In this document: positions 46,029-52,155 of the stretch, in pieces
How the letters are laid out: each line of letters begins with the position of its first letter
How positions within the stretch are numbered: the stretch's first letter is position 1
Assembly (NCBI RefSeq): GCF_009687865.1
Contig: NZ_BLAE01000060.1
Location: 1-64,000 of the forward strand
Direction of reading: 5' to 3'
Length of the DNA: 64,000 bases
Source: Acrocarpospora macrocephala
GTDB lineage: Bacteria; Actinomycetota; Actinomycetes; Streptosporangiales; Streptosporangiaceae
Made by a program: the position numbers and the translations under genes
Notes under the pieces: generated by a model
Told to the model about the DNA's origin: nothing
Databases searched by the model: none
What the model saw: only the letters and a program-made list of their open reading frames with translations

Positions 46029-47378
46029 GTGCATCCATCCAGAAGATCGGGTCGGTATCGGTTAGGCCTGGTCGTCGCCACCCTGGTCGCGCTGGTCGGC
46101 GCGGGACTGACGGTCGTCGGCACCGCGTCGGCGGCGGACAGTTTGTTGTCGCAGGGTCGGCCGGCTTCGGCGTCGTCCACTGAGGGCGGGGGCTACGGAG
46201 CCGGGGCGGCCGTCGACGGGAACAACGGGACCCGGTGGGCCAGCGCGTTCAGCGATCCGCAGTGGATCCAGGTCGATCTCGGGGCCACGGCGACGATCTC
46301 CCAGGTCGTGCTGGCCTGGGAAGGCGCGTACGGCAAGAGCTTCAAGATCCAGACATCCCCCAACACCACCACGTGGACGGACATCTACTCCACCACGACC
46401 GGCACCGGCGGCACCCAGACCCTCAACGTGACCGGTTCCGGACGCTACGTCCGCATGTACGGCACCGCCCGCGGCACCGGCTACGGCTACTCCCTCTGGG
46501 AGTTCAAGGTGTACGGCACCGGCGGCAGCGGCTCCACCCCCATGCCCAGCCCGACCTTCACCGACGAGGTCACCCACCACGAGTTCCAGGCCAACTGCGC
46601 CTTCACCCAAAACCGCCCGGACGACCCGATCGTCTACCCGGGCCTGCCGGGCGCGTCCCACATGCACACCTTCGTCGGCAACACCACGACCAACGCGAGC
46701 AGCACGGCGGCGTCCCTCCTCGCGGGGAGCACCTCCTGCACCAACCCGCACGACCGCTCCGCCTACTGGTTCCCGAGCTTCTACAAGGGCGCCGACCTGA
46801 TCCAGCCCATCGGTGACCAGGTCATCTACTACAAGTCCGGCATCCTCGAATACTGGCGGGTCCAGTCGTTCCCGCAGGGGCTGCGGTTCGTGGTCGGCAG
46901 CCCGACCGCGACCCTGGAGCAGTTCCGCGACTCCCCCGGCACCGTCGAAGGCTTCGAATGCGGAAATATCTCCTTTAGCTGGGATATTCCGACCAACTGC
47001 CCGGCGGGGAGCCAGGTGAACGTCCGCTACCAGGCGCCCAGCTGCTGGGACGGCGTCAACCTGGACAGCGCTAACCACAAGTCTCACATGTCCTACCCGG
47101 TCAGCGGCTACTGCCCGGAGTCCCACCCGGTCGCCGTACCGATGCTCGAATTCAAGATCGCCTTCCCGGCGAGCGGCGACCTCACCCAGGCCCGCCTCTC
47201 CAGCGGGCGCGGCTACACCTGGCACTACGACTTCTTCAACGCCTGGGACAACCCCGCCATCCTGCAGGCCCTGGTCACGCACTGCATCAACGGCGGCCTC
47301 CAGTGCAACCCGCGCGGCTACGACCAGTACAAACCCCACCGCGGCGCGGCTCTCACCCCCGCCTTCGAACTCCCCTGA
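46029..47378 (+). CDS. Secreted DUF1996 protein with N-terminal F5/8 carbohydrate-binding domain
   Basis: This 449-aa protein starts at GTG 46029 behind AAGGAGAG. A signal peptide covers ~1-36. A discoidin domain at ~38-168 is very close to those of the giant glycosidase (SQGRPASASSTEGGGYGAGAAVDG...). A DUF1996 domain spans ~180-445 (HHEFQANCAF, ASHMHTFVGN, RSAYWFPSFY, WDGVNLDSANHKSHMSYP). DUF1996 proteins occur in fungi and actinomycetes near polysaccharide-degrading genes. Conserved His and acidic residues suggest metal or glycan chemistry, but the activity is not established. Co-regulated with the GH3 and multidomain enzymes through the shared operator. Confidence 0.85.
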   Translation: MHPSRRSGRYRLGLVVATLVALVGAGLTVVGTASAADSLLSQGRPASASSTEGGGYGAGAAVDGNNGTRWASAFSDPQWIQVDLGATATISQVVLAWEGAYGKSFKIQTSPNTTTWTDIYSTTTGTGGTQTLNVTGSGRYVRMYGTARGTGYGYSLWEFKVYGTGGSGSTPMPSPTFTDEVTHHEFQANCAFTQNRPDDPIVYPGLPGASHMHTFVGNTTTNASSTAASLLAGSTSCTNPHDRSAYWFPSFYKGADLIQPIGDQVIYYKSGILEYWRVQSFPQGLRFVVGSPTATLEQFRDSPGTVEGFECGNISFSWDIPTNCPAGSQVNVRYQAPSCWDGVNLDSANHKSHMSYPVSGYCPESHPVAVPMLEFKIAFPASGDLTQARLSSGRGYTWHYDFFNAWDNPAILQALVTHCINGGLQCNPRGYDQYKPHRGAALTPAFELP

Positions 47379-47490
47379 CCCCGAAGAAACGCTGACCCCG
47401 ACGAACTCTGACACCGACGAACCCTGACCGCAAAATCCTGACCCGAGGAATCCTGACTCGAGGAATCTCGACCCCAACGAAACGCTGACC
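47375..47490 (+). repeat. Degenerate tandem repeat, 14-17 bp unit
   Basis: About eight units of the type CTGACCCCGACGAAnC run head to tail from the DUF1996 stop codon, which is part of the first unit, to the hairpin at 47491. Units vary in length and sequence, so this is an old array. Function unknown. Confidence 0.6.
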
Positions 47491-47538
47491 GCACGTGCCC
47501 GGACCCGGCACCCGGCGCACCCGGGCCCGGGCACGTGC
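47491..47538 (+). terminator. Strong hairpin downstream of the DUF1996 gene
   Basis: Arms GCACGTGCCCGG (47491-47502) and CCGGGCACGTGC (47527-47538) pair perfectly, with a GC-rich 24-base loop that can pair further. There is no U-run, as is usual for actinomycete terminators. From here to 47774 I see no other feature apart from the 5' region of the LuxR gene. Confidence 0.6.
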
Positions 47539-47774: not shown

Positions 47775-50700
47775 GTGATCGTGCCGGAAAGTGGTTTCGT
47801 CGGGCGGGAACGCGAACTCGCCGTTCTCAACCAGGCCTGGGAGAGCGCCCAGCACAACGAGACACGGATCATCAGCATCGACGGCGATCCGGGTATCGGG
47901 AAAACCGCATTAGTACGCCGTTTCCTCCGCGAAGCCAAACCGGAATCCCTCGTCTGGGCCAGCGGCGACGAAGCGGAGATCGATCTCCCCTGGGGTGTGC
48001 TCACCCAGATCGCCCAAGCCCTCCCGGCGATCGGATCCCCGAGCACCCCCTGGGAGGCGCGCGCGGACCCCGTGTTCATCGGCCACGCGCTGGCCCGCGA
48101 ACTGCAGGACCGCAAGGATCTGATCCTCGTCATCGACGACGCCCACTGGGCCGACCGCCTCTCGCTGGCCACCATCCGCCTGGCCGCCCGCCGCCTGCTG
48201 GCCGACCCGATCCTGCTCATCGTGATCCACCAGACGCCCGGCCCGCTCGACCGCATCATCCACGACGGCCCTGCTCCGACCCTCGACGACAACTGGCGCC
48301 GCCTTTTCGACTCCGACCGGGGCCTACGCCTCTCCCTCCACGGCCTGACCGCCCCCGACCTGATCCGCCTGGCCGTCGATCACGGCCACCCCGGCCTCTC
48401 CCCCGGCGGCGCCGCCCGCCTCCACACCCACACCGGCGGGCACCCCCTGCACGCCCGCCACCTCCTGAACGAACTCCCCCTCCACGCCATCAACTACGGC
48501 CACGGCCCTCTCCCCGCTCCCCGAACCCTGACCACCACCCTCAGATCCCACCTCGAACGATGTTCCCCCGCGACCCGAAACGTCCTCGCCGCGGCTGCCG
48601 TCCTCGGCACCAAATCCACCCTCACCGCCCTCCGCACCCTGATGGAAACGCCGACCCTCGCCACGGAGGCGATCGAGCCGGGCCCACTGGGGGATATACC
48701 CGGATCGCCAGTTGCCGAGGAGACCTTCAGAAAGGCCGTTACCGAGGCGATCGACCTTCGCCTGCTGGAGGAGGTGCCCGGCTCGGCAGGAATGGAGCTG
48801 GGATTTCCCGGAACGATGGTGCGAGGGCTGGTCTATCACGAGATCGATCGCGGCTGGCGGCGCGAGTTGCACCGGCGGGCCGCGCGGCGGGGTGGAGCCG
48901 GAGCGCTATGGCATCGGATCGCCGGTGCCGAAGGGCAGAACGAGGAACTGGCCAGAGATGTCGAACGGGCAGCACGGGATCAACTGGCCCAGGGCTGGAT
49001 ACCACTAGCGGCCATGCTGTGGCGCCATGCCCTGGAACTGACGCCAGCAGGGCCGACGCGGGGACCTCGGCTACTGGCGGCGGTCGAGGCGTTGCTGGTA
49101 GCAGGGGATATCGCGACAAGCCTGGAATATCAGGGCGAGGTTGCCAGCCTCTCATCGGAAGGCGATATCCAGCGACAAAGCGAAATCGCCGACCGGCCAT
49201 CGGGGCACGAAATCCCCCGACCGGGCGAGGCCGCCAGCCTCACATCGGACAGCGGCATCCCTCGAACGAGCGGCGTTGTCGGCCTCTCATCGGAAGGCGG
49301 CATCCAGCGACAAAGCGAAATCGCCGACCGGCCATCGGGGCACGAAATCCCCCGACCGGGCGAGGCCGCCAGCCTCACATCGGACAGCGGCATCCCTCGA
49401 ACGAGCGGCGTTGTCGGCCTCTCATCGGAAGGCGGCATCCAACGACGAAGCGGGGTCGCCGACCGGTCGCGGGGGGACGGAATCTCTCGGCCGGGCGAGG
49501 TCGCCGACCTGTCGTCCGGGGACGGTATCCGGCGGTGGGCCGACTATGTGCTGGGATATCAGCTTTTGCTGACCGGGCAGGTTGGCGAAGCGGCGGGGGC
49601 GTTGCGGCGGGCGTTGGTGTCGGGTGAGCGGCACGTGCGGGAGCCCGTGGATCTGGAGGCCAGGATCGCGTCCCAGTTGACCATCCTCGGCGTGCTGACC
49701 GTGTCGTACCCGGAAATGATTCAGCACGCGACGACGGCGGTGGCGACCGCGAAGGAGCCGTGGGTCGCGGCGTTCGCGTGGTTTGCGAAGTCGATCGGGC
49801 TGGCGGTGGTCGGGCGGAGCGGGGAGGCGCTTGCCGCGCTCGCGGGGGTGGACGCGCCGGGGGCGCCGTCGGGGCTGGACGGGCTGGTGGCGCGGGGGAT
49901 GATCCGGCTGTGGACCGATGACTTGGAGGGCGGCCGGAGCGATCTGGCGTCGGCGGTGAACCGGGCCACGCGGGGCGAGCCGTTGCGGGTGGGGCAGGCG
50001 CTGGGCTTTCTCGGGGAGGCCGAATACCGGCTGGGCGCGCTCGGCGAGGCCGTGCTGCACGCGGAGCTCGCGGTCGGTGACGCGGAGGACAACAGCCGCG
50101 TCTGGGACTACGCGATGCTGCACGCGATCGCCTGCTATCCGCTCGCGGCGCAGGCGGAATGGGCCAGGGCCGAGGCTCACGCGGAGCAGGCCACCAGGTG
50201 GGCGCGCCAGGTGGGAACCCCGGCGGGGGTCGTGTACGCGGCGGCGGCGCAAGCCGTACTCGCTCAGGCCAGGGATGACGCGGCGTGGCTGCTGGCGGCG
50301 GCCGAGAAGGCGGAGGCGATCTATCCGGTGGAGGAGCCGGGCACGCACCTGCTCGGGCCGGTGCTGGCGGACGCGCTTTCGCGATTGGGAAGAGCCACCG
50401 AAGCCGCCGAAGCGCTGGCGCGGTTCCAGGTTCGGCTCGGGTCGTCTCGCCGCAGGTCGGTCGAGATGTGTGTGGCCCGGGTGAAGGCCCAGATCGCGGC
50501 CGCTTCCGGACGGCACCAGGAGGCGCTGGACGAATACCGCGTCGCCCTGCGAATCGCCCGGGAGACCGGCATGCGCCTGGAAGCGGCGCGGATCGAACTG
50601 TCCGTCGGCCGGTGCCTGCACGCGCTGGGCCGCCGCGCGGGGGCCGAACGTTCCTTCCGTATCGCGATTGAACGGTTCACCGCGATCGGCGCGAACGCCT

Positions 50701-51014
50701 ACATAATCCAGACCCTGGACGCCGCCAGCCAGGCCGGAATGACCTTGGACGCGCCCCCGGCCGCGCTGGCCGCTCTCACCCCCGCCGAACGCGCGGTCGT
50801 CACGCTGGCCGCCGCCGGGAATTCCAACCGGGAGATCGCCGAACGCCTGGTGCTCAGCGTGAAAACCATCGAATTCCACCTCACCAACGTGTTCAGAAAA
50901 CTCGACATCGGCACCCGCGACGAACTCCGCCAGGTGCTGCCAGAACCAGGGTGGCCACACGAAATCCCTGGGGTTCACCCCGGAAGCCCCGGCAGCACCC
51001 GCGACCTACGCTGA
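47775..51014 (+). CDS. LuxR-family regulator with N-terminal AAA ATPase (LAL type) and a repeat-array linker
   Basis: I chose GTG 47775 because GGAGG lies 6 bp upstream and the protein then opens with the usual SGFVGRERELAVL. The ATG at 47652 would add 41 atypical residues. The protein is 1079 aa, with Walker A GDPGIGKTAL (37-46), Walker B LILVIDDAHWAD (116-127) and helical TPR-like regions. A C-terminal LuxR helix-turn-helix (LTPAERAVVTLAAAGNSNREIAERLVLSVKTIEFHLTNVFRKL) follows. In the middle, residues ~455-590 are a 15-residue repeat array. LAL regulators activate secondary-metabolism or sugar genes in response to ligands. There is no obvious target cluster beside it. Confidence 0.88.
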   Translation: MIVPESGFVGRERELAVLNQAWESAQHNETRIISIDGDPGIGKTALVRRFLREAKPESLVWASGDEAEIDLPWGVLTQIAQALPAIGSPSTPWEARADPVFIGHALARELQDRKDLILVIDDAHWADRLSLATIRLAARRLLADPILLIVIHQTPGPLDRIIHDGPAPTLDDNWRRLFDSDRGLRLSLHGLTAPDLIRLAVDHGHPGLSPGGAARLHTHTGGHPLHARHLLNELPLHAINYGHGPLPAPRTLTTTLRSHLERCSPATRNVLAAAAVLGTKSTLTALRTLMETPTLATEAIEPGPLGDIPGSPVAEETFRKAVTEAIDLRLLEEVPGSAGMELGFPGTMVRGLVYHEIDRGWRRELHRRAARRGGAGALWHRIAGAEGQNEELARDVERAARDQLAQGWIPLAAMLWRHALELTPAGPTRGPRLLAAVEALLVAGDIATSLEYQGEVASLSSEGDIQRQSEIADRPSGHEIPRPGEAASLTSDSGIPRTSGVVGLSSEGGIQRQSEIADRPSGHEIPRPGEAASLTSDSGIPRTSGVVGLSSEGGIQRRSGVADRSRGDGISRPGEVADLSSGDGIRRWADYVLGYQLLLTGQVGEAAGALRRALVSGERHVREPVDLEARIASQLTILGVLTVSYPEMIQHATTAVATAKEPWVAAFAWFAKSIGLAVVGRSGEALAALAGVDAPGAPSGLDGLVARGMIRLWTDDLEGGRSDLASAVNRATRGEPLRVGQALGFLGEAEYRLGALGEAVLHAELAVGDAEDNSRVWDYAMLHAIACYPLAAQAEWARAEAHAEQATRWARQVGTPAGVVYAAAAQAVLAQARDDAAWLLAAAEKAEAIYPVEEPGTHLLGPVLADALSRLGRATEAAEALARFQVRLGSSRRRSVEMCVARVKAQIAAASGRHQEALDEYRVALRIARETGMRLEAARIELSVGRCLHALGRRAGAERSFRIAIERFTAIGANAYIIQTLDAASQAGMTLDAPPAALAALTPAERAVVTLAAAGNSNREIAERLVLSVKTIEFHLTNVFRKLDIGTRDELRQVLPEPGWPHEIPGVHPGSPGSTRDLR
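49140..49545 (+). repeat. In-frame tandem repeats in the LuxR gene (135 bp = 3 x 45 bp)
   Basis: Two nearly identical 135-bp units (starting near 49148 and 49283) and part of a third (near 49418) encode 45 residues each. Each unit is three 15-residue subunits of the form xxxIxRxxExAxxxS: EGGIQRQSEIADRPS, GHEIPRPGEAASLTS and DSGIPRTSGVVGLSS. Nine subunits can be counted, the last blending into helical sequence (GDGIRRWADYVLGYQ). Confidence 0.9.
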
Positions 51015-51138: not shown

Positions 51139-52155
51139 ATGCGCAGACGATCAGTGATCGCTTTGATCGCCACCGCCATCCTGGCCCTGCCCGGCCATTC
51201 GCTCGCCTCGTCCCACCACGGCCCCACCAACGGCTTCTCCGCCAAGGGCCCGTGGAATACGAAGATCCCCCGCTATGTACGACTCGCGCCCAACTCCCAG
51301 GCCATCGTCGACAACATCAAGCTCGACAAGGAACAGAATTTCGGCTCGTGGGCCATCAACACCGACGAATACTCGGCCCCCATCTACACCGTCGGCCGCC
51401 ACACCCCGAAGAAGAAGTGGACCTTCTCCGACTGCCTCAACCTCCCCCACCTGGCCCCGGTGATCGCCGACAGCCTGGCCGCCGTCCCCACCCCACCTGA
51501 CATGATCGTCTCCAAGGGCACCGACGCCTCGGTCGCGATCTACCAGCCGTCCACCGACACCTACTGGGACTTCTGGCGCGCCGAGAAGGACGCCGCCGGG
51601 AACTGGTCGGCCTGCTGGGGCGGCAAGATCGAGCACTACTCCAAGAACCCCGGCATCTTCGACAACCCGCTCGGCGCGACCGCCACCGGCCTGCCCTTCG
51701 GCGCGTTCTCGATCCGGATCGAGGAGCTCCGCCGCGGCCGCATCGACCACGCCCTGAACATCGTCACGGTGCGAACCCGAGCGAACTGCAACTCCTGGCC
51801 GGCCTCCCGCAACGACGGCTGGGTCGAAGGCGCCGACATCCCGTGCGAGGGCCAGCGTTTCCGCCTGGACCCGACCTTCGACGTCAGCACCCTCACCAGC
51901 CCCGCCGCCCGCACGATCGCCCGGGCCATGCAGGAGTACGGCCTGATCATGACCGACAAGGGCGGCGCCCTGGTCACCTACGCCGAAGACCCTCGCCCGT
52001 ACATGGCCAGCAACGGCGGCGTCGACCCCTACACCCTGCTCTTCGACCCCACCGACCTGGTCCCCGACGGCGTGGAGAAATACCTCGTGCTCTCCGAGAT
52101 CCCGGTCGAACGCCTGCAGGCCCTCCCCCTCGACTACGGCCGCCCCAGGCCGTGA
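51139..52155 (+). CDS. Secreted protein of unknown function
   Basis: This 338-aa protein has a good signal peptide (MRRRSVIALIATAILALPGHSLAS), and AGGAGG precedes the ATG. The mature part is rich in Trp, Tyr and Pro with beta character (TDTYWDFWRAEKDAAGNWSACWGGKIEHYSKNPG, GLPFGAFSIRIEELRRGRIDHALNI) and two or three Cys pairs. It resembles extracellular beta-sandwich or glycan-binding proteins, but I do not recognise the family. The strong hairpin after it suggests a single-gene transcript. The 124 bp before it show nothing else. Confidence 0.7.
   Translation: MRRRSVIALIATAILALPGHSLASSHHGPTNGFSAKGPWNTKIPRYVRLAPNSQAIVDNIKLDKEQNFGSWAINTDEYSAPIYTVGRHTPKKKWTFSDCLNLPHLAPVIADSLAAVPTPPDMIVSKGTDASVAIYQPSTDTYWDFWRAEKDAAGNWSACWGGKIEHYSKNPGIFDNPLGATATGLPFGAFSIRIEELRRGRIDHALNIVTVRTRANCNSWPASRNDGWVEGADIPCEGQRFRLDPTFDVSTLTSPAARTIARAMQEYGLIMTDKGGALVTYAEDPRPYMASNGGVDPYTLLFDPTDLVPDGVEKYLVLSEIPVERLQALPLDYGRPRP

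Follow-up and report, generated by a model that had tools for sequence, protein, structure and literature searches.

A tandem array of 15-residue units in an Acrocarpospora LuxR-type regulator: probable tolerated growth of a coding minisatellite

The window, a 64,000-nucleotide stretch of an Acrocarpospora macrocephala contig, carries a regulator gene in which nine in-frame units of 15 residues occupy all 405 bp of positions 49140-49544. We consider it likely that this array reflects ordinary intragenic minisatellite growth in a near-neutral side loop that the protein tolerates, with no tuning function needed. The species series (no array, a short loop, eight units, nine units), the unconstrained evolution of the encoded protein and the predicted side-loop position together point to tolerated growth, and because many genes of this and related genomes hold in-frame arrays of a similar kind, a tuning function is unnecessary to account for it.

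The regulator gene and its repeat array

47775..51014, + strand: regulator gene; open reading frame with GTG start, 1,079 residues; AAA ATPase, helical half, LuxR/GerE
47883..47906, + strand: Walker A motif GDPGIGKT, residues 37-44, read from the sequence
48120..48140, + strand: Walker B-like motif LILVIDD, residues 116-122, read from the sequence
50772..50927, + strand: LuxR/GerE DNA-binding domain, residues 1000-1051 (PF00196, E 2e-13)

The GTG at 47775 was picked as start codon for the purine-rich stretch upstream of it. Pfam places an AAA_16 ATPase at residues 8-149 (E 1e-18), and G37, G40, G42 and K43 of the Walker A motif, like D121 and D122 of the Walker B-like motif, are unchanged across 13/13 aligned orthologs. 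Judged from its sequence, with an N-terminal Walker A ATPase, a C-terminal LuxR helix-turn-helix and a large size, the protein is a LAL-type regulator (MalT-like ATPase/LuxR). The gene downstream (51139-52155) encodes 338 residues with an N terminus that looks signal-like by eye, and it has no Pfam match at E 0.001. Upstream, an intergenic tandem repeat of 15-16 bp (47374-47493) lies immediately after the stop of a DUF1996 gene; it occurs in one place in its own genome and has no blastn match at E 1 within 10-13 kb congener loci.

49140..49544, + strand: site B, array of nine 45-bp units (residues 456-590), a side loop predicted to be disordered (Tandem Repeats Finder, unit comparison, structure models)
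49140..49274, + strand: 135-bp block 1, units 1-3; 131/135 identical to block 2
49275..49409, + strand: 135-bp block 2, units 4-6; 131/135 identical to block 1
49410..49544, + strand: diverged third block, units 7-9; 97-101/135 identity

The nine 15-residue units claimed in the first-pass annotation were borne out as nine in-frame 45-bp units, with Ile at position 10 and Arg at position 12 in 9/9, Ser at 6 in 8/9, Ala at 2 in 7/9 and Glu at 15 in 5/9. Amino-acid self-identity of the array is 0.38, 0.34 and 0.78 at lags of 15, 30 and 45, and 0.00-0.13 at other lags from 9 to 49. Its Tandem Repeats Finder score (599 at period 135) is the highest in the window, and one dinucleotide and one triplet shuffle of ∼390 kb of its own genome yielded no array scoring above 65. 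The same annotation had described 45-residue higher-order repeats that are near-identical in DNA, which holds for blocks 1 and 2, where a 140-bp exact repeat recurs at 135-bp spacing (49167-49306 = 49302-49441), but not for the third block, in which likeness is 41/45 for unit 7 versus unit 4, 35/45 for unit 8 versus unit 5 and 25/45 for unit 9 versus unit 6. Unit 9 finishes with WAD, which also closes the short loop of several orthologs.

Predicted position and divergence among orthologs

An AlphaFold2 model of the window protein, built on a 13-row alignment, had a mean pLDDT of 73.9. Residues 463-582 fell under 50, with block means of 25-33 across most of the stretch; for units of 15 residues, confidence this low speaks against folded repeat domains but is no proof of disorder. 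By this model the array is probably disordered, and its low pLDDT may in part be an effect of the shallow alignment there. Helices 453-461 and 586-599 flank the array, with a low-confidence helix (464-472) after the first. The first-pass annotation had set the array between the ATPase and the helical half, but the helices of that half begin at about residue 347, so that residues 456-590 fall within it. The matching helices of the A. catenulata model (mean pLDDT 82.6), 406-415 and 419-431, are three residues apart. Judged from the helix boundaries of the models, the array is predicted to form a side loop that replaces a hairpin turn within the helical half. An interdomain linker was rejected on this position, which is predicted from models only, and because the array stands inside the helical half in place of a three-residue turn, its length need not shift the spacing of domains.

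The top Foldseek match was a STAND ATPase with TPR (6mfv, E 1.5e-9), at an rmsd of 16.1 over the whole alignment, and the matches also included MalT (8bob, 1hz4). A second structure comparison aligned the TPR part with MalT domain III (1hz4) at Z 24.9 and rmsd 4.5 over 338 residues, with an unrelated TPR-type protein, 8jal, just above it (Z 26.2); the ATPase part matched MalT 8bob at Z 16.1 and rmsd 5.6 over 326 residues.

We compared 20 orthologs, from 19 genomes and Streptomyces acidiscabies, excluding two loci in which the gene is cut by a contig end (L092, L094) and a set of short distant matches (L095-L102). The site B segment is longest in the window protein (152 residues), followed by A. 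pleiomorpha (137), A. corrugata (57) and A. phusangensis (39); the other 16/20 have 25-28 residues (25 in A. catenulata) and no array. A search of 394 class-level genomes, a draw evidently without congeners, returned no ortholog at E 1e-60 beyond the window. The A. pleiomorpha ortholog is 96% identical over the C-terminal 491 residues, and its array aligns with that of the window with a single gap, exactly 45 bp long. Unit 2 of the A. pleiomorpha array resembles a fusion of two adjacent unit types. Repeat number, compared in close relatives as had been proposed, is nine here and eight in A. pleiomorpha, with short loops in two congeners. With in-frame units, a length divisible by three and a copy number that differs between species, the array has the marks of a coding minisatellite/VNTR.

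Identity between blocks 1 and 2 of the window array is 97%, whereas the matching unit pairs of A. pleiomorpha are 82-87% identical (37, 39 and 37 of 45), which supports the rapid and recent change that had been read as recent expansion. Because the two arrays align with one gap, the order of unit types would be older than the split and the near-identity of blocks 1 and 2 younger; to go by these identities, homogenisation or renewed duplication of the window blocks probably followed the split from A. pleiomorpha. Sequence comparison did not link the array to the short loop of A. corrugata (best 24/45, null mean 24.2, reached by 197/300 codon shuffles), and origin of the array from the native turn is thus something that we infer. 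The A. corrugata loop has a borderline 45-base self-period of its own (30/75; 56/1000 shuffles reach it).

Against A. pleiomorpha, array dN/dS is 1.00 (bootstrap 0.58-1.80; 117 codons), a guide rather than a precise rate because unit-to-unit orthology may be blurred by concerted change. The corresponding values are 0.08 (0.02-0.16) for the ATPase part, 0.08 (0.03-0.18) for the pre-array segment and 0.14 (0.08-0.22) for the part after the array. Differences are evenly spread over the codon positions in the array (23/27/19) and third-heavy in the ATPase (7/3/28) and C-terminal parts (15/13/52; p 2e-7). There is no detectable protein-level constraint on the array in this comparison. The comparison with A. 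corrugata, over a short alignment of 37 codons, gave a dN/dS of 0.31 with saturated dS, a value that we do not trust.

We propose that 45-bp units were tandemly duplicated in frame and so lengthened a short turn between two helices of the TPR-like helical half, and that 135-bp blocks would next have been duplicated or homogenised; the mechanism was presumably replication slippage or unequal recombination. The encoded side loop would be hydrophilic and probably disordered, accepted by the fold and presumably without function. Selection would be seen only as an open reading frame while the amino-acid sequence drifts, and the difference in copy number between species would be a by-product.

Two further stretches of the gene, both upstream of the array, are variable.

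48660..48731, + strand: site A, another variable loop, longer here by 24 residues (ortholog comparison; residues 294-309 below pLDDT 50)
48759..49139, + strand: stretch separating site A from the array, with a surplus of synonymous changes on the window lineage (third-position counts)

Site A lies in what we take, from the general architecture of STAND proteins, to be a winged-helix-like region next to the ATPase, a region with a role in STAND switching. The loop has 53 residues in the window protein, 79 in A. pleiomorpha, where 26 residues are tandemly duplicated, 305 in A. phusangensis, with repeats rich in Pro/Asn/Gly, 229 in S. acidiscabies (Gly/Val-rich repeats; an insert of ∼190 residues, L091 4974-5480) and 16-30 in the remaining 16 orthologs. 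Because the repeats of A. phusangensis and S. acidiscabies appear unrelated in sequence, this loop would have been filled at least twice. A third loop, site C, has 43 residues in one genome (G034), 41 in S. acidiscabies and 14-21 in the other 18 orthologs. Work on these regulators should allow for orthologs whose lengths diverge, at two or three loops of fixed position, by hundreds of residues.

The segment at 48759-49139 has 31 third-position differences from A. pleiomorpha in 127 codons, compared with 80 in 779 in the flanks (p 3e-5, uncorrected, for a segment spotted after looking). With the ancestral base agreed by A. corrugata and A. phusangensis, 14/14 segment changes were assigned to the lineage of the window species, and 10 were G to A as read on the coding strand; the same polarisation gave 16 to 22 in the flanks (segment versus flanks p 9e-5, likewise uncorrected). 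Polarised by A. phusangensis alone, the segment counts were 25 to 3; by A. corrugata alone, 16 to 6; and by A. corrugata with A. catenulata, 8 to 2. Segment pS was raised also in the window-corrugata, window-phusangensis and corrugata-phusangensis pairs, and little or not raised between A. pleiomorpha and either A. phusangensis or A. catenulata. In a draw of 100 family genomes, A. pleiomorpha not among them, we found no donor closer than the congeners from which the segment could have been imported. Repeat-driven mutation of neighbouring DNA was rejected as a general effect, since it was not seen at two other arrays: pS in an NRPS was 0.12 between its two repeat loops, 0.14 in the rest and 0.21 in the 102 codons before the first loop, and pS beside a lipoprotein array was 0.07 and 0.11 versus 0.07 and 0.08 for the whole sides. 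Around site A, C-rich third-position usage gives way to G-rich usage in A. pleiomorpha, A. phusangensis and the window species; the switch is weaker in A. corrugata and not clear in A. catenulata.

Array frequency and alternative explanations

Defining a strong array as one with a Tandem Repeats Finder score of 120 or more, we surveyed background stretches that were hand-picked on contigs with earlier matches and are not random. The own-genome sample, which leaves the window itself outside, held 13 strong arrays in 389,452 bases (33/Mb), 11/13 with a period divisible by 3; some of them are true domain repeats by eye (WD40-like, and an Fn3-like protein). A. pleiomorpha had 8 in 278,936 bases (29/Mb) and A. 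catenulata 9 in 120,000 bases (75/Mb), six of these within one stretch; the counts were 9 in 200,000 bases for G034, 5 in 160,000 for two Herbidospora genomes and 3 in 40,000 for G142. Nine Streptomyces-type loci (96,599 bases) had strong arrays in 2/9, nearly all at the S. acidiscabies locus. Strong in-frame minisatellites are thus frequent in every Streptosporangiaceae sample here, and single arrays should be judged against that background. An open frame of A. catenulata (L137 14810-17591; 1,627 codons) contains four strong tandem arrays.

The regulator class was rejected as a repeat hotspot: 40 paralogous regulators, gathered by profile search from five Acrocarpospora genomes, had 5 strong arrays in 4 genes, or 41/Mb, compared with 29-75/Mb in the background samples. 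Among the orthologs, 17 of the 20 were covered by Tandem Repeats Finder, and 5/17 had strong arrays (6 arrays, score of at least 120). They are not significantly richer in arrays than the paralogs (5/17 vs 4/40, p 0.11; 4/16 vs 4/40, p 0.21, with the window and A. pleiomorpha taken as one). An A. corrugata LuxR-type paralog (L195, ORF residues 61-123 and 450-488) has one array right after the Walker A helix and a second further on.

Two array proteins chosen by hand, the lipoprotein and the NRPS, vary likewise in length. The lipoprotein loop has 106 residues in the window species, 110 in A. pleiomorpha and 125, 91 and 71 in other congeners; the NRPS loops have 189 versus 126 and 89 versus 94 residues in the window species and A. 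pleiomorpha, respectively (1,257 A. pleiomorpha codons compared). In both, pN is highest in the loops (lipoprotein 0.072 vs 0.023 and 0.007; NRPS 0.130 and 0.195 vs 0.032), although the lipoprotein loop also has a higher pS (0.25 vs 0.07-0.08) and its pN/pS is not above that of the protein's first part. At the NRPS locus L118 (981-1442 and 2248-2427, − strand), ∼8 copies of a 21-residue unit lie between the condensation and adenylation parts, and a further repeat lies within the condensation part (domain names by eye).

Certain observations do count against the minisatellite reading. The array is stronger than any in the 40 paralogs (599 vs 225), Ile-10 and Arg-12 are invariant in the nine window units, and the gain of repeats at several loops, in several lineages, of the same protein could mean more than tolerance. 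The missing kinship with the A. corrugata loop weighs on the same side. The array might accordingly be a selected adjustable element whose length or bulk alters the switching of the regulator. In favour of this, close species have arrays of different length, several lineages show expansion at two or three loops of the protein, and site A adjoins the ATPase in the part to which the STAND switching role belongs. We nevertheless judge such an element unlikely in view of the side-loop position, a dN/dS near 1, the like variation of other proteins and the 16/20 orthologs that have no array. Tuning through linker length, as the first-pass annotation had it, found no support for similar reasons: the array is a predicted side loop, it shows no purifying selection against A. 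pleiomorpha, and variable arrays occur in other proteins. Tuning keeps a small probability, its positive evidence being length variation, and the models contradict the interdomain linker on which it was premised.

A wider version of this idea strikes us as rather improbable. Sites A and B would be recurrent growth points at which lineages independently add unrelated disordered repeat loops, of ∼250 residues for A. phusangensis, ∼190 for S. acidiscabies and 135 for the window protein. What adjusts an ATP-driven switch would then be how bulky a loop is, whatever its sequence, and repair at the repeats would leave directional mutations nearby. If true, it would account for a frame that is always open although dN/dS is near 1.

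The constancy of Ile-10 and Arg-12 could also mean that the units are short Ile-x-Arg binding motifs that gather a partner several times. This is very unlikely, as each residue is retained in just 6/8 A. pleiomorpha units, pooled unit pairs within the window array have a dN/dS of 0.82 (the pairs not being independent), and most orthologs have no array at all.

The chance that the array or its copy number is an assembly artefact is small. The 275-bp near-perfect repeat stretch, with its 140-bp exact repeat, stands in a draft genome of 166 contigs, and short reads are described as having trouble with tandem repeats (PMC4487206, PMC12817950); against this, A. pleiomorpha has a diverged array, independently assembled, at the same place. 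The existence of the array is therefore safe, and the exact count of nine is provisional. Insertion of a mobile or dispersed repeat is barely credible and was rejected: the array has one place in its own genome, the long match among 150 family genomes is confined to that genome and A. pleiomorpha (the other nine hits span 23-72 bases, E above 1e-5), and 199 other order genomes, a draw without A. pleiomorpha, gave no match at E 1e-8.

Comparison with known systems

Tolerated minisatellite growth, the reading that we prefer, makes this a clean case in which a striking regulator repeat can be weighed against a story of linker tuning. A literature search of titles and abstract openings found none on repeat arrays in this regulator. 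The regulator itself resembles LAL regulators and MalT as described in PMC3282765 (PDB 1hz4, 8bob) in being large, with an N-terminal Walker A, a C-terminal LuxR helix-turn-helix and MalT-like folds. It does not match MalT itself, however: the NCBIfam equivalog NF003420 scores 31.3 bits versus a cut-off of 537 and fits the DNA-binding part only, and Pfam TPR_MalT is below its cut-off (16.2 vs 45). The repeat loop is absent in most orthologs.

Near-identical tandem units of variable number in a bacterial protein recall the Periscope proteins (PMC8201768), whose units are presented there as folded domains of a cell-surface rod, whereas the units here have 15 residues, are predicted to be disordered and bulge from a turn of an apparently cytoplasmic regulator. 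The array also resembles the fast-evolving protein repeats, in which new copies are reported to be under strongly relaxed selection (PMC5120217), and a census reports protein repeats to be enriched in disordered regions (PMC7230257); the array is likewise under relaxed selection and predicted to be disordered. In the account of PMC5120217 each copy is later conserved between orthologs, whereas the units here are still changing between close species.

Bacterial coding minisatellites/VNTRs are described as tandem units of >30 nt with an in-gene length divisible by three and a varying copy number (PMC6749651, PMC12817950), and the array is like them in its in-gene 45-bp units, its variable copy number and its difficulty for short reads. 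The Mycobacterium tuberculosis VNTR work, as presented in PMC12817950, stresses promoter repeats with phenotypes, whereas here the repeat is a loop of a regulator whose variation is known between species only.
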